Below, piece after piece: positions 6,650 through 17,313 of a stretch of 64,000 bases of DNA. The stretch is from Microtetraspora fusca (GTDB lineage Bacteria; Actinomycetota; Actinomycetes; Streptosporangiales; Streptosporangiaceae). Made by a program: the position numbers and the translations under genes. Under the pieces are notes generated by a model. It did no database searches and was not told where the DNA came from. It saw only the letters and a list, made by a program, of their open reading frames with translations. Position 1 is the first letter of the stretch, and the number at the start of each line of letters is the position of its first letter. The stretch spans positions 1 through 64,000 of the forward strand of contig NZ_BBYK01000046.1 of assembly GCF_001570365.1 (NCBI RefSeq). Direction: 5' to 3'.

Positions 6650-7437
6650 CCTCTCTCGCCTCTCATCGGGTCCGGCCCCGGGGCGGCGCGCTCACGCAGG
6701 GGCTCACGCTCGCGTGGCGCAGTCTCGTGCCGCTGCGCAACGAGCCCGGGCGGCTCGTCCAGCTCCTGCTCCAGCCGATCTTCATGATCCTGTTGTTCGT
6801 CTGCCTGTTCGGTGCGATGACGGGCGACCAAACGGGGACCGCCCAGTTCCTGCTGCCGGGCGTGCTCGTCCAGGTCGCGCTGGTCGCGACCAACACCACC
6901 GGCATGAACCTCGCCGAGGACATCGGCAACGGCGTCTTCGACCGGTTCCGCAGCCTGCCGATCGCGAGGTCGGCCCCGCTGATCGGCCGGATCCTCGCCG
7001 ACACCCTGACCATGCTGCTGACGGTCACGACATCGCTGCTCACCGGCCTCGTCGCCGGATTCCGCGTCCGCACCTCGCTCGCCGAGACGCTCGCCGGGCT
7101 CGCCCTCGTGCTGCTGTTCACGTTCGCGCTGTCCTGGGCCTCCGCGTGGATCGGTCTCAAGGCCAGAAGCGTCGCCTCGATGCAGGGCATGGCGACCGCC
7201 GTCCTGCTTCCCCTGACGTTCGGCAGCACGGCGTTCATCCCCGCGGCCAACGTGCCCGGCTGGCTCCGCTGGTGGATGGACGTCAACCCGGTCTCGCACC
7301 TGGCCGCGTCGCTGCGCGTCCTGCTCACCGGAGGGCCGCTGGGGGCCCACCTTTGGATCACGTTGGCCTGGGCCGTCGCCATCGTCGCCGTCTTCTTCCC
7401 GCTCGCCGTCCACAGCTACACCAGGAGGATCCGTTGA
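6646..7437 (+). CDS. ABC-2 type permease, DrrB-like
   Basis: Membrane partner of the preceding ATPase, 263 residues with six predicted membrane segments, typical of ABC-2 exporters. It shows the family features DIGNGVFDRFRSLPIARSAP (coupling region after helix 2) and FIPAANVPGWLRWWMDVNPVSH near the C-terminus. Its ATG overlaps the ATPase stop (ATGA), so the two are translationally coupled. A convergent AfsR-like regulator lies just downstream. The substrate is not deducible; drug or secondary-metabolite export is the usual role of this pair. Confidence 0.9.
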   Translation: MTSLASHRVRPRGGALTQGLTLAWRSLVPLRNEPGRLVQLLLQPIFMILLFVCLFGAMTGDQTGTAQFLLPGVLVQVALVATNTTGMNLAEDIGNGVFDRFRSLPIARSAPLIGRILADTLTMLLTVTTSLLTGLVAGFRVRTSLAETLAGLALVLLFTFALSWASAWIGLKARSVASMQGMATAVLLPLTFGSTAFIPAANVPGWLRWWMDVNPVSHLAASLRVLLTGGPLGAHLWITLAWAVAIVAVFFPLAVHSYTRRIR

Positions 7438-7676
7438 CCATGGACGTCGCCGACATCGACGAGCGGCTCGGCCGACGGCCGTCGCCGGAACAGAGTGGAT
7501 CACCATGGGGGACGGCGTGCGACTGGCCATCGATATCCGGCACCCGCCCGCCGGAGGAAGGTGTCCCGTCCTTCTCGCGCGGGCGCCGTGCTGCCCGCTC
7601 GGCGGATCGTGTGCGGGCCGCCTTCGTCCGGCGCGTCAAAGGTGTCGTCTCCGTCCTGGTTCGTCGCGCGTGGCGG

Positions 7677-10600
7677 TCAGGCCGAACGGAGGAGCCGGTC
7701 GATCTCCTGACGGGACAGGGTGGTGCCGCGCGCGTACGCCTCGTCGAACCGGGAGCCCAGGGCCGAACGGGCCGCCGTCGTCGCCGCCTCGATATCCATG
7801 TCGGCGCCGGCGGAGGCGTGAATGGCGTCGGCCGCGCCGAACAGCACGACCGCGCGCTCCGTGTCGCCCGCGCGCAGCAGGGTGATCGCGAATCCGGCGA
7901 CGACCGAGGCGAGAACGGGCAGGTCGGGGGCGGCGCCCAAGGCGTCCATCGCCAGCAGGTGGTGCTCCCGTGCCGCGGCGAAGTCGCCCCTGTCCGCGAG
8001 CGCCCTGGCGTAGGCGTGGTGCGCCCAGGCCTCCTGCTGGGGGATCACGGGGATTCGGTCCAGGTCCGCGATGACCTGCTCGTAGACGCGCAACGCCCCG
8101 TCGAGGTCCCCTCTGCGCCGCGCCACCTCGCCCTCACCGATCCGGAGCTGGGCCAGGGCGTGCGCGGGAAGGTCGGGAGTGACGGCGGCCCTGGCCCGGG
8201 CGATGTCGTCGGCGGCGCCCTCGAGGTCTCCCGCCTGGGCGCGCAGGCTCGCGAGCCGGGTCAGTGTGGAGACCGCATCTTCCGCGCTCACCCATTCGGA
8301 GGTCAGCTCCGCGACCTCCTCTATGAGGCCGGGCGGCAGGTCGCCGCGGGCGGCGTGGAGCGAGGCGAGGCTGAGCAGGGCCTCGCTGAGCCCCCAGCGT
8401 TCGCCGATCGTCCGGAAACCGGTGACGGCCGCCTCCAGATCCTGCCGGGACTGGTCCAGCTCAGGCTGGAAGCCGCCCCGGATCATGCGGGCCGAGCTCG
8501 CCAACCACAGGTCGTCGGAGCGCACATAGCCATCGAGCAGGGCGAGGCCGTGCTCCTCCTGTCCTCCCATGAACGCCATGACGGCCCTGCCGATCAGCAG
8601 CATCGGATGGAGAGAGCCCTCACGGACGGCGCGGTTGATAAGCGCGTCCATCCGAGCGGCCATGATCCTCAACCGGTCGGGATCGGCGAGCAGCGAGCCC
8701 AGCTTCGTGACATTGACCGCGAACTGGCAGCCGGCGTACGCCCCGGCCAGGCCAGAGGGAGGTTCGTCCCCCGCCAGCGCGAGAACCTGCTCGGCCCACA
8801 CCGCGCCCTCGGCCCGATAGCCGCGGAGCCACCAGAACCAGTTCAGCGAACTGCAGAGCCGTACGGCCAGCTCGACGTCCCGGTGATCCAGCGCCCAGCG
8901 GAGCGCGGCGTGGATGTCATCCTGTTCGGCGATCAGCCGGTCGATCCATTCGATCTGGTCGGCCGTACGCAGTCGCGGCTCGGCGCTCTCCACGAGCTCC
9001 AGGAACCGCAGGGCATGGCGATGCCGGAACGCGTCGAGTTCGCCGGCTTCGCCGAGCCGTTCGAGAGCGAAGGCGCGGATCGTCTCCAGCATCCGATATC
9101 GGCCGTCGTCCGCCATCTCGACCAGGGACTTGTCCACCAGCGACGGCAGGAGCTCCAGCACGTCCAGGCCGGCACCGCTTCCCGTCGCGCTGGGCGGCCA
9201 CTCGTCTCCGCACACGCGCTCGATGTCGTCGAACGTCGCTCCGCCTGCGAAAACGGCGAGCCTGCGGGCCAGTTTCCGCTCTCGTGGGTCCAGCAGGTCC
9301 CAGCTCCACTCCACCACGGCGCGGAGGGTCTGGTGCCGCGGAAGGGCCGTCCGATTGCCCGCGGTGAGCAGCCGGAAACGATCATCGAGCCGTATCGCGA
9401 GCTGCGCGGGCGTCAGAGCGCGCAGCCGTGCCGCGGCCAGCTCGATCGCCAGGGGCATGCCGTCGAGACGACGGCAGATGGTGACGACAGCGTTCACGTT
9501 CGACTCGTCGAGGGTGAACCCCGGCCGCGCGCCGAACGCTCTCTCCAGGAGGAGCCGCACGGCCGGACATTCGCGCGCCTCTTCGACGGTCGCGCCCTCG
9601 TGCGGCAGCCGCAGCGGCGGGATCGGCGCGAGCATCTCGCCCGGGACCCCGAGCGGTTCCCTGCTGGTGGCGAGCACGGTCACCCCGGGGCATTCCTCCA
9701 GAAGGCGCCGCGCGATCAACGCCGCCGTGTCGATCACGTGCTCGCAGTTGTCCAGCACAAGCAGGAGCCGCCGGATGCCCAGCACGGCGACGATCTGCGC
9801 GACGGGATCGATGGGATCGGCTCGCCACTCCCCCGCCACGGACCGGTCCGCCGTAACGCCGAGCGCGTCGAGGATGGCGTGCGGCACATCGACGGGGGCG
9901 GTGAGAGGAGCGAGCTCCACCATTCGGAACGTGTCGAGTCGGAACGTGTCGAGCGCCGCCGAAGCAAGGGTCGTCGAACTGTCGGCCCCGGAACTGGTGA
10001 TGCCGAGTGCCGTCTCGACAGCGAGCCGAGTCTTGCCCACTCCTCCTGGCCCGGTGATCGTCACCAGGCGCGAGATCCGCAGCAGATCGCCGACGTGGGA
10101 GACCTCTTCTTCCCGTCCGACAAAGCTGGTCAGAGGCATCCGTACAGTCGCTTGCCTCCGTCGCGGATCAGCCGAGCGCGCGGCGGGGCGGTGTGCTGTC
10201 CCTTCCCACAGGCCCTTCGCGGAACCTTCCCGGGCCTCCCCCACTGTGCTACCTGCCGAGCCGTCGAAGGCCGCGCCGCCCGGTGCCACGCTGCCCGGTG
10301 CCGAGCCACCGGAGGCCGCGCCGCCCGGTGCCGAGCCGTCGGAGGCTGTGCCGCCCAACGTCCTGTCGCCTTGAAGAGTGGCTCCCCCGGCGGCCCCGTT
10401 CTCCGTCCCGCCGCGACCGGCGCCGCTCGTCTCGCTACCCCCGTCGTGGCTCGCATAGCCGCTCGACCCCGCAAACCGAGGGACTCCGGCTCCGTTCCCG
10501 GCGCCTGGACCGTGGGACGCGCGCATTCTGGGGTCTTCCCGGACGTCGTCTCCTGCTCCCACCTCACCACCGTCGATCCAGCCTTCATGCGGCGGGGCTC

Positions 10601-11351
10601 CGTACGGGGCCGTGGGCGACGGCCGTACGGGATCGCCCCGCAGGACGGCGAGATGGGCGGCGCGGAGATCGGGCCCCGGATCGACGCCGAGCCCCTCCGT
10701 GAGCGCCTGGCGGATGTTCTCATAGAGGGCGAGTGCCTCGGCCTGCCTGCCGCTCGCGGCCAGAGCGCGCATCGCCAACCCTTGCAACCGTTCTCTGAAC
10801 GGATGCTCCGCCGCCTCCGCGGACAGGTCGATCCGCCATCCGAGCGTCAGGTACGCCTCCGCCCGGGCCTCGATCACGGCCAACCGCCGTTCTTCGAGCA
10901 GTGCGGCGGCGCTCGCCAGGTAAGGCACGGCGTGCAGGTCGGCGAGCGCCGGACCCCGCCAGAGCGCGAGGGCCTCGTCGAACGCACGGGCGGCTGCCTC
11001 GGGCGTCCGTTCGGCATGTTCACGCTGCGTGAGCCGGGCGAAGCGGTGGGCATCGACGTGGGCGGGATCGACGTCGACGAGATAGCCACCGGGACGACCC
11101 ACGATCACATTGGGCGGGCCTATGGCCGCCCGAAGTCGCTTGACCAGGGTCTGGAGCGCGTTCACGGTGTTGGCGGGCAGATCCTCGCCCCAGAGAATGT
11201 CGGCGAGGCGCTCATGAGTGAGGAGCCTCCCGGGTTCCAGCGCCAGGCCGGCGAGCAACGCTCGGAGCCGCAGTCCGCCGAGGGTGACCCGCTCGCCGCT
11301 AGGGTTCACGACCTCCAACGGTCCCAGGAGAGAAATCCGCACAGCGGACAT
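7677..11351 (-). CDS. AfsR/SARP-type transcriptional regulator (wHTH-BTAD-NB-ARC-TPR)
   Basis: Large regulator of 1224 residues. An OmpR-like winged helix at about 1-95 (SLLGPLEVVNPSGERVTLGG) is followed by a bacterial transcriptional activator domain to about 245 (ending GLGVDPGPDLRAAH). A low-complexity Gly/Ala/Ser linker spans about 250-390. An NB-ARC ATPase has Walker A GPGGVGKT near 435, Walker B LLLVLDNCEHV and the LATSREPLGVPGE motif. The C-terminal third is helical and TPR-like. Such proteins activate secondary-metabolite or exporter genes after a signal-driven ATPase switch. Neighbours are a DrrAB-like exporter on one side and the RiPP locus on the other; either could be a target. 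Confidence 0.9.
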   Translation of the reverse strand: MSAVRISLLGPLEVVNPSGERVTLGGLRLRALLAGLALEPGRLLTHERLADILWGEDLPANTVNALQTLVKRLRAAIGPPNVIVGRPGGYLVDVDPAHVDAHRFARLTQREHAERTPEAAARAFDEALALWRGPALADLHAVPYLASAAALLEERRLAVIEARAEAYLTLGWRIDLSAEAAEHPFRERLQGLAMRALAASGRQAEALALYENIRQALTEGLGVDPGPDLRAAHLAVLRGDPVRPSPTAPYGAPPHEGWIDGGEVGAGDDVREDPRMRASHGPGAGNGAGVPRFAGSSGYASHDGGSETSGAGRGGTENGAAGGATLQGDRTLGGTASDGSAPGGAASGGSAPGSVAPGGAAFDGSAGSTVGEAREGSAKGLWEGTAHRPAARSADPRRRQATVRMPLTSFVGREEEVSHVGDLLRISRLVTITGPGGVGKTRLAVETALGITSSGADSSTTLASAALDTFRLDTFRMVELAPLTAPVDVPHAILDALGVTADRSVAGEWRADPIDPVAQIVAVLGIRRLLLVLDNCEHVIDTAALIARRLLEECPGVTVLATSREPLGVPGEMLAPIPPLRLPHEGATVEEARECPAVRLLLERAFGARPGFTLDESNVNAVVTICRRLDGMPLAIELAAARLRALTPAQLAIRLDDRFRLLTAGNRTALPRHQTLRAVVEWSWDLLDPRERKLARRLAVFAGGATFDDIERVCGDEWPPSATGSGAGLDVLELLPSLVDKSLVEMADDGRYRMLETIRAFALERLGEAGELDAFRHRHALRFLELVESAEPRLRTADQIEWIDRLIAEQDDIHAALRWALDHRDVELAVRLCSSLNWFWWLRGYRAEGAVWAEQVLALAGDEPPSGLAGAYAGCQFAVNVTKLGSLLADPDRLRIMAARMDALINRAVREGSLHPMLLIGRAVMAFMGGQEEHGLALLDGYVRSDDLWLASSARMIRGGFQPELDQSRQDLEAAVTGFRTIGERWGLSEALLSLASLHAARGDLPPGLIEEVAELTSEWVSAEDAVSTLTRLASLRAQAGDLEGAADDIARARAAVTPDLPAHALAQLRIGEGEVARRRGDLDGALRVYEQVIADLDRIPVIPQQEAWAHHAYARALADRGDFAAAREHHLLAMDALGAAPDLPVLASVVAGFAITLLRAGDTERAVVLFGAADAIHASAGADMDIEAATTAARSALGSRFDEAYARGTTLSRQEIDRLLRSA

Positions 11352-11690: not shown

Positions 11691-13838
11691 TCAACTCGGC
11701 AGAGGGACCGTCTGGGCGGCCACGAGGCGGGCGTACCGGCCACGCAGGGCGAGCAGGTCGGCGTGGGTTCCGCGTTCGACGATCCGGCCCTGTTCGACGA
11801 CGAGGATGAGGTCGGCGTCACGGATCGTGCTCAGCCGGTGGGCGATCACGATCCTCGTCTGCGTCAACCGCGCCAGGTTGGCCTCGATGGCCGCCTCGGT
11901 GGCGCTGTCCAGATGGCTGGTCGCCTCGTCGAGCAGGAGGATCTTGGGCTGGGAGAGCAGCGCGCGGGCCAGCGCGAGCCGCTGCCGCTGGCCGCCGGAC
12001 AGACCGCCGCCCTCGACCAGCATGGTCTCGTAGGCCATCGGCATCGCGGCGATCTCGTCGTGGATGCGGGCGATCTTCGCGGCGTACGTGATCCGATCGA
12101 GGGAGGCGCCCGGGTCGTTCAGGGCGATGTTCTCCCGGATGGAACCGGTGAAAAGTGACGGCTCCTGGTTCACCACGCCGAACTGGCGGCGGAGCGACCG
12201 GAGGTTGAGCTCCGCCATGGGCACGCCGTCGTACCGGATCTCGCCGGTGGTCGGGGTGTGCAGCGCGAGCAGCAGGCGGGCGAGTGTGCTCTTGCCCGAG
12301 CCGGATGGCCCCACGAGCGCGACCTTCTGACCGCGCCGGATCATGAGGGAGACGCCCTGGAGCGTCCACGGTCCGCGCGGGTCGTGCCGATAGCCGACGT
12401 CGCGCAGCTCCACCTCACCGCGCAGGCGGAGCACTTCGATGCCGTCCAACGGCTCGGGGCGGGACGCGAGGATGTCCGAGAGCCGGTCGAAGTGCGCTCC
12501 GGCCTGCTGGAGGCTCTGCAACCCGCTCATCAGGGAGCTCATCGGAGCGAGCGCGGCCACGGCGAGCGCGTTGAGCGCGAGCAGGGTGCCGAGGCTCATC
12601 GAACCGTCGAGCACCCGCCACGCGCCGACCCACAGCAGCCCGAGGGGGGCCAGGAACCGGATCGCGCCGAGAGCGGAGTCCACGAGGCCCTGCGCCAGAC
12701 CGCCCCGTACGTCGGCGTCGAGTTGGGCGCGGAACAGGTCCGACCAGCGCTTCACCGCTCGCGGCTCCGCCCCGGACGCCTTGAGCGTCTCGATGCCTCC
12801 GATGGCCTCGATCAGCCGGCTCTGGGTAGCCGAGAGTGCGGCCAGTTCGCGCTGTGTCAGATCTTTGATGCGGCCGGACGTCGCGATCAGCAGCGCGAGC
12901 TGGACGACGGTCAACCCCGTGAGGCAGGCGCCGAATACGGGATCGCGGACGAAGACAAGGACCAGATAGCCGAGGGCGAGCGGCCCGTCGAGCAACGCCG
13001 ACAGCAGCTGCCCGGTCAGCATCCCGCGCAACAGGCTCACGCTGCCGGCTCGGGTGACCAGGTCGCCCGCGCCGCGCTGCGCGAAATACCGGTACGGCAG
13101 CGCGATCAGGTGCTCGACGAGGCCGACTGTGAGGTCCCCGTCGGCGCGGGCCCGAAGGGTGACCAGCAGCACCGATCGGAGGTAGGCGACGGCGAACTGG
13201 GTGACCGCCGCCACGCCGACGGCCAGGCCGAGAACGGTGAGGAGTTGGTCGTCCCTTCCCGGAAGGATCCGGTCGACCAGCACCTCGGACACCGTCGGCA
13301 ACGCGAGGCCGGCGAGCTGGAGCAGCAGCGTGGCCAGCACGATCTGAGCGAGCAGCCCGCGTCGCCGCAGGAGAAGGGTCCGCAGGAACGCGCGCCGCCA
13401 GGCGACCGGGCCGCCGGACGTACGCATTCTGCGGAACGAGCGTCCGGGCTCGAAAGCGAGGACCACGCCGCTGAAGCCCGCCGCGAACTCCTCAGGGCTC
13501 AGTCTCCGGCGCCCCAGGGCGGGATCGACCACATCGATGCGGCGCTCGGTCCAACGCTCGACGACGACGAAGTGATTGGACTCCCAATGAACGACGGCGG
13601 GAAGCGGCAGCCGGGCCAGGTCGGCGGGGGCCAGCGCGGAACCCCTCGCCTTCAGCCCCGACGCCCGGGCCGCCGCCATGATGTCGCGCGCGGTGAGGCC
13701 GTCCCTGCCGATCTGGAGCCGCTCGTTCAGCTCGTGAGGGGAGGTGCGGCGGCCGTGGAAGCTCAAGACCATGGCCAGGCAGGCCGCGCCGCACTCGGTC
13801 GCCGTGTTCTGCTGGGCGACGGGGACGCGGCGTCTCAT
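11691..13838 (-). CDS. C39 peptidase-containing ABC exporter (PCAT) of the RiPP locus
   Basis: Fused leader peptidase and exporter of 715 residues. The N-terminal C39 domain keeps the catalytic triad: Cys16 (ATECGAAC), His89 (ESNHF) and Asp105 (VVDPALG). A six-helix ABC membrane domain follows (about 155-430), then the ATPase with Walker A GPSGSGKS, signature LSGGQRQRLALARALL, Walker B ILLLDEAT and the H-loop IVIAHRLSTIRDADLI. The family cuts precursors after Gly-Gly and exports the C-terminal part through the membrane, matching the precursor at 17028-17177. The start MRRRVPVA is fixed by a 4-base overlap with the stop of the small gene upstream. Confidence 0.93.
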   Translation of the reverse strand: MRRRVPVAQQNTATECGAACLAMVLSFHGRRTSPHELNERLQIGRDGLTARDIMAAARASGLKARGSALAPADLARLPLPAVVHWESNHFVVVERWTERRIDVVDPALGRRRLSPEEFAAGFSGVVLAFEPGRSFRRMRTSGGPVAWRRAFLRTLLLRRRGLLAQIVLATLLLQLAGLALPTVSEVLVDRILPGRDDQLLTVLGLAVGVAAVTQFAVAYLRSVLLVTLRARADGDLTVGLVEHLIALPYRYFAQRGAGDLVTRAGSVSLLRGMLTGQLLSALLDGPLALGYLVLVFVRDPVFGACLTGLTVVQLALLIATSGRIKDLTQRELAALSATQSRLIEAIGGIETLKASGAEPRAVKRWSDLFRAQLDADVRGGLAQGLVDSALGAIRFLAPLGLLWVGAWRVLDGSMSLGTLLALNALAVAALAPMSSLMSGLQSLQQAGAHFDRLSDILASRPEPLDGIEVLRLRGEVELRDVGYRHDPRGPWTLQGVSLMIRRGQKVALVGPSGSGKSTLARLLLALHTPTTGEIRYDGVPMAELNLRSLRRQFGVVNQEPSLFTGSIRENIALNDPGASLDRITYAAKIARIHDEIAAMPMAYETMLVEGGGLSGGQRQRLALARALLSQPKILLLDEATSHLDSATEAAIEANLARLTQTRIVIAHRLSTIRDADLILVVEQGRIVERGTHADLLALRGRYARLVAAQTVPLPS

Positions 13839-13954
13839 GAGGTCACCGTCCCGAGGCGTACGAAGAGGGTGAGCACGGTCACGACCAGGACCGCGACGAT
13901 GATCCAGAGGATGAGAAGGGCCGATCCGGCGGCGCCGGGCTTCTGGCCGGTCAC
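13835..13954 (-). CDS. 39-residue membrane protein of the RiPP operon
   Basis: A very short gene fits exactly between its neighbours: its GTG overlaps the stop of the PpiC-like gene (GTGA) and its stop overlaps the exporter start (ATGA). The product opens MTGQKPGAAGSA, has one strong membrane helix (ALLILWIIVAVLVVTVLTLF) and ends RLGTVTS. Coupling on both sides argues that it is translated. It could be an exporter accessory subunit or a membrane anchor for the maturation complex. No homology is claimed. Confidence 0.7.
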   Translation of the reverse strand: MTGQKPGAAGSALLILWIIVAVLVVTVLTLFVRLGTVTS

Positions 13955-15954
13955 AGCCAGTGCCAGGTGACGGAGGCCCGCGCGCGTCGCTCGGCGAGCC
14001 ATTCGGCGAACGCGACCCGCCCGGCGGCGGCCAGCACCGCAGGATCGCCGTCGGCCGCGGGACGCCGGTCGAGCACGACGCCGCTGAAGTACGTCCGGCC
14101 GGCCTCCGCACCGCTGGAATATGTCCCGCCGACATCCGCGCTGCTGCGATCCGTCAAGCCGCCGCCACCAGACCGCGCACCGCTGAACAAGGTCCCACCG
14201 GCATCCGCGCCACTGCCCGCCAAGCCGTCGCCCGCGTCAGTGGACCATGCCGCATCGACATGCGCGCCGCTGGACAAGGCCTCGTGGACATCCGCGCTGC
14301 TGCGCGCCAAGCCGCCACCCGCACCACCGACATGCGCACCGCTGAACAAGGTCCCACCGGCATCCGCGCCACTGCCCGCCAAGCTGCCGTCCGCGTCAGT
14401 GGACCACGCCCTGTCGGCATCTGCGCCGCTGCTCTGTCGAGCGCCGTCCGTCGGGTGCGCGCCCTGTGCAGAGGCATCCCCCGGAACGCCATCGGGTCTG
14501 GAACGCATGCCACTCGAAGACGCCGCAGGCACGCTGACGGAGCCGGCCCGCACGCCTCTCGAAGGCACGCCGCCGCGACCCTCCTGATACGAGGGGCGCC
14601 CGGCGACACGGCCGTCGCCGGAACGGGCTCCGGCGTACCAAGCCTCGGGCTGGAGCGGGCCGACGACCACTCCGACGGGCGCATCGCGGAGGGGTTCCGG
14701 CAGGCCGCTCGCCACGCGCTCGCAGAGCGTCGCCTCGGCGGCCCCTTCGTCGGCCAGAACGCGGGGCAGGTTCGCGAGGAACTCGGTGGCGTCCGCCCCG
14801 GGGAAGGGATGCGGCCCGATCACCCAGGCGGCCGTGACCCGGTCGAAGTCGCCACGATGCCGTGCGAGGTAGCCGGGTGCCAGCTCGGCCTCCTTTCGGC
14901 GGCGAAAGCGGATCCGGCGAGCGAGAGCGGTCACCTCCTCCTCGAACTGCTCCGCCGTCATGCCCATGCGGTCGAGCCAGGCGAGCACGGCCTGGCGTCC
15001 GTGCAGGCCACGGCGACGGCGGAACGCGTCGGCGGCCTCCTGGACGTCACCGTCAACGAGCGGTTCGTCCCTGGACGCGGCCACGAGCAGGCAGTGGTCG
15101 ACGATGTCATCGTGTGCCGAGCCGTTCCGCCCCGTCAGGCCGCGGAGCATGAGGAAGGCGTCAGGCAGCGACAGGTGGGCGCCGTCCACGCTGACGAGTT
15201 GGTTGGCCGCCCAGTGGGTGGAGTGGTCGACGGGCCAGGAGATCCCGTCATCGGACGGCGCGGTCAGGGCCACCGTGCCGCCGTCGGGATGCGCGACGAG
15301 CAGGTCGTAGTCGACGACCGGGGTGCCGGGTCGTGCATCGACGACGAGCTGGGCGTCCAGCTCGGGATGCGCCGCGGCCCATGTGGCAGCGGCCCGGCGG
15401 GCGGCGGTGACGCCGGAGCGCCTGCGGTCCAGGGCACGCAGCAGCTCGATTCCGGACTCCACCGCCACGCCGAACGGGATCTCCTGCTCGATCTTGGACG
15501 CGACCGTTTCCGTCGCCCCGAACCCGATGCCTGACACGTGTGCCTTGGAAACCCGCTGCTCGCACGCGGGCATGTCGGGCCCGAAAACTCCTGGGCCACC
15601 TTCCGCCATCCCAGCGCGGAAGTCTGCCAAGCCACATTCGCCTGTCTCGGACATCGGGTCCTCAGAGGCGACCGAAGACGCCGTCGGCCCGACACGTTCC
15701 GCCCCAGAGGTCCCAGCGCCGAACTGCACCACGCCGCGTCCGATCGCTGACACGACTGCCTCGAACATCCGCTCCTCAGACCCGGACGCCGTCGGCCCGA
15801 CACGTTCCGCCCCAGAGGTCCCAGCGCCGAGCTCCGCCACGCCGCGTCCGATCGCTGACACGGCTGTCTCCGACACCGCTGTTCCGATAGCCCGCGGCCC
15901 GCGCCCGGTTCCCGGCTCCGGCGCCTCGCGGTCGATCTCAGGAAGGCTGCTCAT
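13951..15954 (-). CDS. PpiC/SurA-like peptide maturation protein with repeat insertions
   Basis: Protein of 667 residues resembling, from memory, the family NCBI calls putative peptide maturation system protein (TIGR04500), which is related to PpiC-type prolyl isomerases and found with ATP-grasp RiPP enzymes. The conserved core is about 165-440 (LLRALDRRR; AYLARHRGDFDRVTAAWV) and resumes at about 625-667, ending AEWLAERRARASVTWHWL. About 185 residues of Gly/Ala/Ser/Asp repeats interrupt the core before this C-terminal piece, and a 36-residue repeat lies near the N-terminus. A perfect Shine-Dalgarno AAGGAGGTG precedes the ATG. It overlaps the ATP-grasp gene by 17 bases, so the two are co-expressed. 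Confidence 0.75.
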   Translation of the reverse strand: MSSLPEIDREAPEPGTGRGPRAIGTAVSETAVSAIGRGVAELGAGTSGAERVGPTASGSEERMFEAVVSAIGRGVVQFGAGTSGAERVGPTASSVASEDPMSETGECGLADFRAGMAEGGPGVFGPDMPACEQRVSKAHVSGIGFGATETVASKIEQEIPFGVAVESGIELLRALDRRRSGVTAARRAAATWAAAHPELDAQLVVDARPGTPVVDYDLLVAHPDGGTVALTAPSDDGISWPVDHSTHWAANQLVSVDGAHLSLPDAFLMLRGLTGRNGSAHDDIVDHCLLVAASRDEPLVDGDVQEAADAFRRRRGLHGRQAVLAWLDRMGMTAEQFEEEVTALARRIRFRRRKEAELAPGYLARHRGDFDRVTAAWVIGPHPFPGADATEFLANLPRVLADEGAAEATLCERVASGLPEPLRDAPVGVVVGPLQPEAWYAGARSGDGRVAGRPSYQEGRGGVPSRGVRAGSVSVPAASSSGMRSRPDGVPGDASAQGAHPTDGARQSSGADADRAWSTDADGSLAGSGADAGGTLFSGAHVGGAGGGLARSSADVHEALSSGAHVDAAWSTDAGDGLAGSGADAGGTLFSGARSGGGGLTDRSSADVGGTYSSGAEAGRTYFSGVVLDRRPAADGDPAVLAAAGRVAFAEWLAERRARASVTWHWL
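14175..14384. repeat. 159-bp direct repeat unit inside the PpiC-like gene
   Basis: About 51 identical bases at 14175-14225 recur at 14334-14384, an offset of 159 bases or 53 codons, with further similarity after each copy. The period keeps the reading frame, so the repeat expands the Gly/Ala/Ser/Asp-rich insertion of the protein. Confidence 0.85.
15677..15863. repeat. 108-bp direct repeat in the 5' part of the PpiC-like gene
   Basis: About 46 identical bases starting at 15677 recur at 15785, an offset of 108 bases or 36 codons, and similarity continues to about 15863. The encoded repeat reads roughly AIGRGV(A/V)(E/Q)(L/F)GAGTSGAERVGPTAS. Confidence 0.85.
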
Positions 15955-16945
15955 CGTGGTGTGCCACCTCCTTGCCGCGTCTCGCGGCGGTCACCAGCCA
16001 TTCGGCCACGGCGTCGCCGATCGGCAGGCCGGTGGCGGCCTCCAGCCAGCCCCACTCACCGTTGGGATTGATCTCCAGAAACACGTACTCGCCGTCGGGG
16101 CGCAGGATGAGGTCGATGGCGCCGTAGGCGAGGCCCAGGTCGGCGACCAGGTCGAGGCAGCGCCGTTCGACGTCGGCGGGCAGGTGGTGTACGCCGTAGC
16201 GCACGCGGCCGTCGTCGTAGTGGCGCCAGTCGTCGCGGGCGGCCCGTGAGCTTCCCGCGTCGATCTCGGCGGCGAAGGCGCGCTCGCCCACGACCATGAC
16301 GCGCAGCTCCACGGCCTTGGGGACGTACGGCTGCAGGATGACCGGCTCGTGCTGGAGGCGGTGGCGTGAGGTGAGGTGCCTGCGGGTCACGAGGGTGGTG
16401 TAGACGCGGTGGTCCTGGCCGTCGAGCAGGAACCGGTGCGAGTCGAAGAGCTTGGCGACCAGCCGCCCGCCACTCCGCGCGTACGCGGGGACGAGCGCGG
16501 CGGGGTCGTTCGTCATCACGGTCTCGGGGATCGCGAAGCCCAGCCGGACGGCCCGGTCCAGGTGGACGAGCTTGTTGTGAGCCCGGTCCACCACCGGGAG
16601 GCGGGCGGGGAACCACGGGACGGGCAACAACTCCCAGAGCCCGGACATGAAGAATCGGGAGACCCGGTCCACGTGCGCGCGCTGCGTCGGCTCGGTCATG
16701 TTGATCGCGGCGGAGGGGGCGTTCGGCCGCCTGACCCAGACGGCGGTCACCTCGGCCAGATCGAGCACGAGCTCCTGGGTGGACAGTATGAACGAGGGTC
16801 GGTCACCGATGAAGGTGGCGGTGACCCGGCCTCCGGAGGGGAAGTCGCCCGGGTCCCACCACACGACCGGGAGTCCCCTCGACTCGATCTTGGGCAGGAC
16901 CATGTCCACAGTGGCGTCGCCGCGGTCACTCAGTACTAGAAGCAT
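15938..16945 (-). CDS. ATP-grasp RiPP maturase (graspetide ligase-like)
   Basis: Protein of 335 residues with an ATP-grasp fold of the MvdD/TgmB type. Such enzymes activate Asp or Glu side chains of a precursor peptide as acyl-phosphates and join them to Thr/Ser or Lys side chains, giving omega-ester or omega-amide macrocycles. Visible features are the N-terminal MLLVLSDRGDATVDMVLPKI, the mid-region RLVAKLFDSHRFL, the ELRVMVVGERAFAAEIDA strand and the metal/ATP-binding end YGAIDLILRPDGEYVFLEINPNGEWGWLE. The start follows GGGAAAG by 4 bases. It lies directly after the precursor gene and overlaps the PpiC-like gene. Confidence 0.88.
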   Translation of the reverse strand: MLLVLSDRGDATVDMVLPKIESRGLPVVWWDPGDFPSGGRVTATFIGDRPSFILSTQELVLDLAEVTAVWVRRPNAPSAAINMTEPTQRAHVDRVSRFFMSGLWELLPVPWFPARLPVVDRAHNKLVHLDRAVRLGFAIPETVMTNDPAALVPAYARSGGRLVAKLFDSHRFLLDGQDHRVYTTLVTRRHLTSRHRLQHEPVILQPYVPKAVELRVMVVGERAFAAEIDAGSSRAARDDWRHYDDGRVRYGVHHLPADVERRCLDLVADLGLAYGAIDLILRPDGEYVFLEINPNGEWGWLEAATGLPIGDAVAEWLVTAARRGKEVAHHDEQPS

Positions 16946-16989
16946 GTCGCTTTCCCTTGCTCGCGACCGCCTGGGGCGACGCGGAGCAC

Positions 16990-17020
16990 CCGGGGAGGCG
17001 GGACGGGCCCGCCTCCCCGG
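16990..17020 (-). terminator. strong hairpin immediately after the precursor gene
   Basis: Perfect 13-bp inverted repeat CCGGGGAGGCGGG/CCCGCCTCCCCGG with a 5-base loop, starting 7 bases after the precursor stop codon. It would stop or stabilise most transcripts, so that the precursor is made in excess over the enzymes, a frequent arrangement in RiPP operons. Confidence 0.8.
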
Positions 17021-17027
17021 AGCCGGC

Positions 17028-17177
17028 TCAGTTGATGATGTCCCACTCGGCGGGCTTGCCGCCGATGTACCAGGTGACCTTCATCTCGGGCATCCGGCCG
17101 CCGCCGACGAGGCCGAGGTCGCCCTCGGAGAGCTCGGCTCCGTCGAAGGCGAGGTCGTCAAGCTTGATCTTGGACAC
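17028..17177 (-). CDS. RiPP precursor peptide with double-glycine leader
   Basis: A 49-residue peptide starting at GTG (MSKIKLDDLAF) after GGGAA. The leader is acidic and carries ELSEGDLGLVGGG, the classical motif read by C39 peptidases (hydrophobic positions before Gly-Gly). Cleavage after Gly26 or Gly27 would release a 22-23 residue core, RMPEMKVTWYIGGKPAEWDIIN with or without one more Gly. It offers acids Glu31, Glu44 and Asp46 and partners Thr35, Lys33 and Lys41 for side-chain crosslinks, and has no Cys, which argues against a lanthipeptide. It lies 82 bases upstream of the ATP-grasp gene, with a strong hairpin between. Confidence 0.85.
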   Translation of the reverse strand: MSKIKLDDLAFDGAELSEGDLGLVGGGRMPEMKVTWYIGGKPAEWDIIN

Positions 17178-17313
17178 AATGTTCCCTTTCCGCCGCCCGA
17201 GAGCGGCGTCTTCCACGTTCCCCCCGTATGGCGAGGAACCAGTCATCACCGGTGGTCCCGGTGATCGGTTGAGCACCTGGGACCGAACGTAGAGATCGCG
17301 ACTTGATCGGGAC

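Follow-up and report, generated by a model that had tools for sequence, protein, structure and literature searches.

The window, a stretch of 64,000 nucleotides from Microtetraspora fusca (contig NZ_BBYK01000046.1, positions 1 to 64,000), contains a five-gene graspetide locus of the TIGR04500 ("PpiC-related") type on its minus strand, with which this soil actinomycete most likely makes a small peptide closed into a ring by an ester bond. The genes encode a precursor peptide, an ATP-grasp enzyme, a TIGR04500 protein, a small membrane protein, and a C39 peptidase-ABC exporter (Table 1). The original prediction, made from the sequence alone, had described these five genes and the overlaps between the last four, and the window sequence confirms both. 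The overlaps comprise 17 bases (ATP-grasp and TIGR04500 genes), 4 bases (TIGR04500 and membrane protein genes, counted with the 39-residue GTG start of the latter), and 4 bases (membrane protein and exporter genes).

The precursor passes the NCBIfam model TIGR04497 (GRASP_targ_2) with 37.5 bits against a cut-off of 32 (E 1.8e-9), and the PpiC-like protein passes TIGR04500 (PpiC_rel_mature) with 245 bits against 180. Among the Pfam families, the ATP-grasp enzyme passes PF21068 (33.7 against a cut-off of 27) and the exporter passes PF03412 (C39), PF00005, and PF00664. The membrane protein of the window has no NCBIfam or Pfam match above cut-off. Because of these curated family matches and the identical gene order seen again in many relatives, the five open reading frames (ORFs) are not regarded as chance. 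The family matches and the ATP-grasp motifs support the prediction of a graspetide-type locus equipped with a C39 exporter of its own, and the Cys-free core does have the predicted length of 22 residues, or 23 with cleavage one Gly earlier (RMPEMKVTWYIGGKPAEWDIIN).

Table 1. Features of the candidate graspetide locus in the window
Feature	Position	Strand	Basis or remark
Precursor peptide, 49 aa, GTG start	17028..17177	-	TIGR04497 above cut-off; alignment A1 with 17 relatives
Precursor leader (residues 1-27) and predicted core (residues 28-49)	17031..17096 (core)	-	Double-glycine leader
Core stretch Thr35 to Glu44, predicted ester	17046..17075	-	Sole donor/acceptor pair kept in 18 of 18 aligned precursors; putative crosslink
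ATP-grasp graspetide synthetase, 335 aa	15938..16945	-	ELR, DWR, and EIN motifs present; structure alignment; tree
TIGR04500 PpiC-related (SurA-like) partner, 667 aa	13951..15954	-	TIGR04500; AF2 model and Foldseek; profile match to SurA
Partner N-terminal extension, residues 1-160, ahead of the family region	15475..15954	-	Holds a 108-bp repeat, 1.9 copies, 15677-15880
Disordered insert of the partner, residues 452-616 (165 residues)	14107..14601	-	Absent from the other 37 rows of alignment A3
Small single-pass membrane protein, 39 aa from GTG	13835..13954	-	No [FY]REEALRR motif, unlike most relatives
Alternative form of the membrane protein, 55 aa from ATG at 14002	13835..14002	-	
C39 peptidase-ABC exporter, 715 aa	11691..13838	-	C39 domain 13443-13826; peptidase and ATPase motifs recognized by eye

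The ATP-grasp enzyme and its TIGR04500 partner

In the PDB, the ATP-grasp enzyme matches graspetide-type ATP-grasp ligases (E 7.7e-51 to 8.9e-23), and its DWR, ELR, and EIN motifs align with the solved graspetide synthetases of the MdnB/MdnC/AMdnB/CdnC type. We infer that DWR corresponds to the "DFR" motif of PMC13097080; a literature search for the DFR motif returned nothing. The closest characterized counterpart is rosaritide (mir), the graspetide of group 21 published in March 2026, with the precursor MirA, the ATP-grasp enzyme MirB (TIGR04187), MirC (TIGR04500), and the exporter MirD (TIGR03796). MirB by itself causes no mass shift, while MirB with MirC leads to a loss of up to 54 Da, corresponding to up to three dehydrations. 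MirB and MirC copurify in an active complex, in which MirC is the essential partner of the ATP-grasp enzyme (PMC13097080). The view of the original prediction that the combination with a PpiC-like protein had not been described biochemically is therefore out of date, and a locus undescribed in kind is rejected as a description of the five genes, rosaritide being known (PMC13097080). By analogy, the obligate partnership known from rosaritide may be carried over to the window.

Locus L283 (genome G434, another family of the same class) serves as a comparator. Of the residues that PMC13097080 specifies by position for MirA, its core, LPRNGAGSSKTIDDIPGGGRPDTDTDFD, has Ser, Thr, Asp, Ile, Pro, and Arg in place, with Thr replacing Ser at position 25, and its sequence suggests a rosaritide-type locus. 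The window proteins are 40% (ATP-grasp), 29% (main part of the partner), 47% (C terminus of the partner), and 43% (exporter) identical to those of L283. In a tree of sequences chosen for their similarity to the window and labeled for TIGR04500 per stretch, a single clade with a local support of 0.98 contains 83 ATP-grasp proteins: 80 from TIGR04500-bearing stretches, including the window and L283 as one rosaritide-type member, and 3 relics from congeners. All 27 ATP-grasp proteins from stretches without TIGR04500 fall outside this clade. Under a stricter test of position, TIGR04500 follows the ATP-grasp gene in 72 of 82 cases. The 10 misses are the 3 relics and 7 loci with TIGR04500 in the stretch but an over-long or shifted frame. 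The TIGR04500 gene of the window adjoins its ATP-grasp gene, as expected for a member of this partner-dependent clade, and overlaps it by 17 bases.

The partner was aligned with 37 relatives (A3, 38 rows), and in 0 of these 37 is the insert of the window protein found. The AlphaFold2 (AF2) model of residues 161 to 667 has a mean predicted local distance difference test score (pLDDT) of 69.5, with values of at least 90 for 243 of 507 residues and below 50 across the insert, which is thus predicted to be a loop that leaves the fold confident. The only Foldseek match of this model at an E value of ≤0.001 is Cj1289 (3rgc; E 1.8e-4), followed by PrsA and SurA at E 0.01 to 0.3, and the A3 profile matches SurA at E 0.0062. 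Cj1289 is also named as the protein closest to MirC, whose C-domain is similar to the Cj1289 chaperone domain and whose N-domain weakly resembles an RRE (PMC13097080), so that the SurA-like partners of rosaritide and the window share their best structural match. A W-x-W motif ends the last strand of the partner family and is invariant in 38 of 38 rows. Short tandem repeats occur in the partner gene and in the gene of a nearby BTAD regulator (window positions 15677-15880, 14081-14146, and 10270-10356). At locus L135, a second TIGR04500 frame follows the exporter (7169-8341).

Precursor core and predicted ring

Alignment A1 comprises 18 W-type precursors, the window and 17 relatives; L131 and L132, with cores identical to that of L129, are not included. 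Other core types (VSAW...YEWW, CYHT...SDGW, VCTS...PDTC, and others) stand outside A1, and with several loci lacking an assigned precursor, the precursor counts are not a census. Five positions are kept in 18 of 18 precursors: S/T35, W36, G40, E44, and W45. The graspetide pattern of conserved Ser/Thr/Lys donors and Asp/Glu acceptors in the core is thus represented by S/T35 and E44, which lie 9 positions apart in 16 precursors and 10 apart in 2. A single Asp or Glu occurs in 13 of the 18 cores, two in four cores, and three in the window. The 13 one-acid cores can therefore hold at most one linkage each, and together with the conserved pair they lead to the prediction of one ester from S/T35 to E44. 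The alignment gives moderate support for a single Ser/Thr-to-Glu crosslink per peptide in the W-type family. One-linkage precedents are Gra-5, which gave one dehydration (PMC9576775), and corallotide, with one isopeptide per repeat (PMC13097080).

It is unlikely that the window peptide is instead a multi-ring graspetide with two or three linkages as in rosaritide, in which Lys33 or Lys41 and Glu31 or Asp46 would also react. The three acids and three possible donors of the window core would allow such a product, and characterized synthetases typically install several linkages (PMC13097080), but the family keeps only Thr35 and Glu44, and 13 of 18 cores leave no room for a second linkage. The turn of the core bears on the function of the partner. 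Pro42 occurs in 15 of the 18 rows, the Lys at position 41 is replaced by Gln or Arg in 5 of 18, and [KR]P stands at the turn in 13 of 18 cores (counted with K). These residues and the PpiC-related annotation would suit a TIGR04500 protein that isomerizes the prolyl bond of the G-K-P turn rather than serving mainly as a chaperone of the ATP-grasp enzyme; with 3 of 18 cores lacking a Pro at the turn, this function is considered very improbable.

At L120, L165, L167, and other loci inside the same ATP-grasp clade, sister cores contain a Cys pair (VCTSINNGQPDTC is one example); a hairpin register would accommodate a disulfide running parallel to a Ser-Asp ester in these cores. Two precursors per locus are found at L106, L109, and L110. 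In genome G305 (putatively Streptosporangium carneum), the locus is split: the ATP-grasp, partner, membrane protein, and exporter genes lie on contig C7 (L107/L285), and the sole strong W-type precursor lies on contig C6 (L114).

The small membrane protein and its exporter type

Among the 83 ATP-grasp loci, 38 have a downstream exporter on the same strand with at least 50% identity to that of the window, 13 have another type (<50%, including L283), and 32 have no exporter within the stretch. With counting anchored on the aligned start of the exporter, a membrane ORF directly precedes the exporter at 37 of the 38 loci with the window type (the miss is L173), compared to 0 of the 13 with the other type. 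A motif like [FY]REEALRR is present by pattern in 31 of these 37 membrane proteins. Most copies end after the membrane helix, and five longer forms reach 132 to 180 aa.

The membrane protein is fairly likely to be a reduced membrane-fusion protein (MFP) of the HlyD/NHLP type. The genes of NHLP/HlyD secretion proteins likewise lie directly before the C39-ABC gene, and the N termini of these proteins tentatively resemble those of the motif-bearing relatives in the pattern [FY]R.E[AS][LM].R and a single membrane helix; they differ in that most of the copies described here stop after the helix. The comparison with five such secretion proteins gives an hhalign probability of 76% (E 2.4e-5) over 28 columns, the window copy lacking the motif. 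Against 350 membrane-like ORF-start decoys, from which motif-bearing starts had been removed and one of which is one of the five NHLP/HlyD proteins itself, the N termini of the five MFPs are outscored by 0, 2, 2, 3, and 36 decoys. A protein unrelated to HlyD, for instance, an immunity or anchoring peptide, is the less likely alternative. It would agree with the curated families, which recognize neither short nor long forms as HlyD (none for 7 relatives in NCBIfam and none for 5 in Pfam), and with the poor model of the long form (mean pLDDT of 57), for which Foldseek yields nothing significant (best E 0.12; MacA and EmrA at 0.14 to 0.16); a PDB profile search with the membrane-protein alignment gave chance-like matches only. 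The gene position, the shared pattern, the decoy ranking, and the strict tie to one exporter type argue against this alternative. HlyD-family and unassigned membrane proteins are named at graspetide loci in PMC8939145, and the membrane protein possibly matches one of the clusters of that study; the term HlyD is absent from the main text of PMC13097080. A reduced MFP would show which portion of this adaptor remains in use in a cell that has no outer membrane.

Proposed pathway, relics, and known counterparts

The five genes probably encode a graspetide pathway of the TIGR04500 clade that depends on the partner protein. In it, the ATP-grasp enzyme would bind the leader and phosphorylate the side chain of Glu44, probably while complexed with the chaperone-like TIGR04500 protein. 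Attack by Thr35 would then form a ten-residue macrolactone across the β-hairpin-like core V-T-W-Y-I-G-G-K-P-A-E-W. The exporter would then cut after Gly-Gly with its C39 domain and export the ring with its ABC part, while the small membrane protein, probably an N-terminal remnant of an MFP, would stay with the exporter. Extended to the W-type family, a tentative proposal is that these peptides are one-ring graspetides, among the simplest possible, in which a Ser/Thr-to-Glu macrolactone staples a Trp-flanked hairpin of ∼18 to 22 residues. They would be made only with the SurA-like partner bound and be exported by a C39 transporter whose MFP is reduced to an anchor, with a Cys pair taking the place of the Trp pair in the sister cores. 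Rosaritide demonstrates that some graspetide synthetases require a chaperone-like partner (PMC13097080); for the question of why, the one-acceptor precursors (13/18) would be the simplest substrate, with one ring, one donor, one acceptor, and the same kind of enzyme pair.

The evidence is strong for the gene identities, the clade, the partner fold, and the core conservation. Several points weigh against the proposed pathway. The best NCBIfam matches of the ATP-grasp enzyme (TIGR04187, GRASP_SAV_5884; E 3.2e-72) and of the exporter (TIGR03796, NHLM_micro_ABC1; E 2.6e-184) lie below their curated cut-offs, with 243.4 against 350 bits and 614.3 against 853.3 bits. The partner matches TIGR04500 incompletely and in two pieces (2-254 and 295-339 of 340), it carries two expansions, and the TM-scores for Cj1289 are low (0.16/0.28). 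The membrane protein lacks the common motif of its relatives, and the two extra acids (Glu31 and Asp46) and two Lys residues of the core make more than one crosslink possible. We infer all of the chemistry, including the ring and its position, leader removal and export, as well as the function of the membrane protein. Finally, the locus looks unstable in the genus, as in three of three congeners (Microtetraspora sp. NBRC 16547, M. glauca, and M. niveoalba) the ATP-grasp gene alone is left at this place.

The ATP-grasp proteins of these congeners show 83 to 86% identity with that of the window, and their frames are open. The partner, membrane protein, exporter, and BTAD regulator genes are gone in all three, except that NBRC 16547 retains 29 residues of the exporter. 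In M. glauca, the flanks reach window position 17184 and resume at 16999, a gap that takes out the precursor segment. When the genomes were searched with A1, M. niveoalba (best E 0.50) and NBRC 16547 (best E 0.34) yielded no W-type precursor, and the best matches in M. glauca adjoin its other ATP-grasp loci. The original prediction had counted relatives with the ATP-grasp gene but without a precursor as evidence against it. Such relatives exist in all three congeners, yet two of the three ATP-grasp proteins have altered catalytic motifs, for which reason they are read as relics that do not count against the pathway. In M. glauca and M. niveoalba, EIN has become EID and DWR lacks its Trp, with the Arg lost as well in M. 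niveoalba; NBRC 16547 is intact at these sites. The same relics, the low-complexity expansions of the window partner, and the shortened membrane protein could indicate a decaying or silent locus, whose genes are leaving Microtetraspora as in the congeners and from which no peptide is made. This is improbable given that all five window frames are open, that the C39, ATPase, and ATP-grasp motifs and the conserved pair of the precursor are intact, and that the partner fold is still modeled with confidence around the predicted loop. The dN/dS ratio was rejected as proof of decay or constraint, as the ranges overlap for ATP-grasp genes (0.22 to 0.41 in relics versus 0.19 to 0.40 in complete loci) and for TIGR04500 genes (0.30 to 0.47 in lone genes versus 0.21 to 0.51 in partners of complete loci). 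A 94-bp repeat lies where M. niveoalba lost the precursor (L100, 8655-8828). The large BTAD/AAA-type regulator that adjoins the exporter in the window (7677-11351) was not found near the relic ATP-grasp genes.

TIGR04500 genes without an ATP-grasp gene lie directly beside the bkd E1-beta/E2 genes in Microtetraspora (L102, 7087-8343; L118; L119; L121) and in other genera (L287 to L289). They are full-length in the window genome and the three congeners and comprise only the C-domain in L287 to L289. The same bkd site holds complete W-type loci in L110, L134, L135, L137, and L138 and an ATP-grasp gene with partner but without exporter in L149 and L161. The partner thus seems to outlive its pathway, and the congener relics and lone partner genes represent natural experiments on pathway collapse. 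The window genome also contains a second graspetide locus (L101, G000:C38:217000-236000), in which a C39 exporter lies upstream of TIGR04500 and an ATP-grasp gene (39% identical), as well as a partial TIGR04500 protein that overlaps a C39 exporter in a stretch without an ATP-grasp gene (L103, 8470-11387, G000:C43).

TIGR04500 is found in at least 103 of 341 genomes of the family at an E value of ≤0.001, at least 77 of them above the cut-off, and in at least 22 of 394 genomes of the class sample, at least 15 above the cut-off; all these tallies are lower bounds. At least 7 of the 22 lie outside the family of the window, one of them above the cut-off. The precursor model TIGR04497 matches in 42 of the 341 family genomes, in 27 above the cut-off. 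In 2022, TIGR04500 proteins were listed at 40 ATP-grasp loci (PMC8939145). A literature search for the term TIGR04500 led solely to PMC13097080 and PMC8939145, and one for TIGR04497 led to no paper. W-type cores were not shown in the literature searched, which did not extend to the supplementary group tables of PMC13097080.

Judged by its sequence, the window locus is a variant of a recently characterized graspetide type and may be active. It resembles rosaritide in its double-Gly-leader precursor, ATP-grasp enzyme, TIGR04500 partner, and C39 exporter in the same order, and the ATP-grasp enzymes of both types share one clade. Its precursor passes TIGR04497 and its partner TIGR04500 at the curated thresholds; the partner differs from its family by the 160-residue N-terminal extension and the 165-residue insert. 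In the rosaritide core, Ser8, Ser9, and Thr11 are linked to Asp22, Asp26, and Asp24 (PMC13097080), in contrast to the one conserved, Trp-flanked Ser/Thr-Glu pair of the window type; the three Ser/Thr donors (SSxT) and three Asp acceptors (DxDxD) of rosaritide are absent from the window core. Rosaritide-type L283 also has no small membrane gene, unlike the window. What is apparently new is the W-type core V-[ST]-W-x3-G-x3-E-W, distinct from that of rosaritide, and, apparently as well, the small membrane protein tied to one exporter type. The plesiocin-type (group 2) hairpin graspetides, including Gra-5, have donor and acceptor in a hairpin-like placing similar to that of the window (PMC9576775; plesiocin topology from PMC13097080), but relatives of Gra-5 conserve two acceptors and at least two donors (PMC9576775), compared to mostly one acid in the W-type cores.

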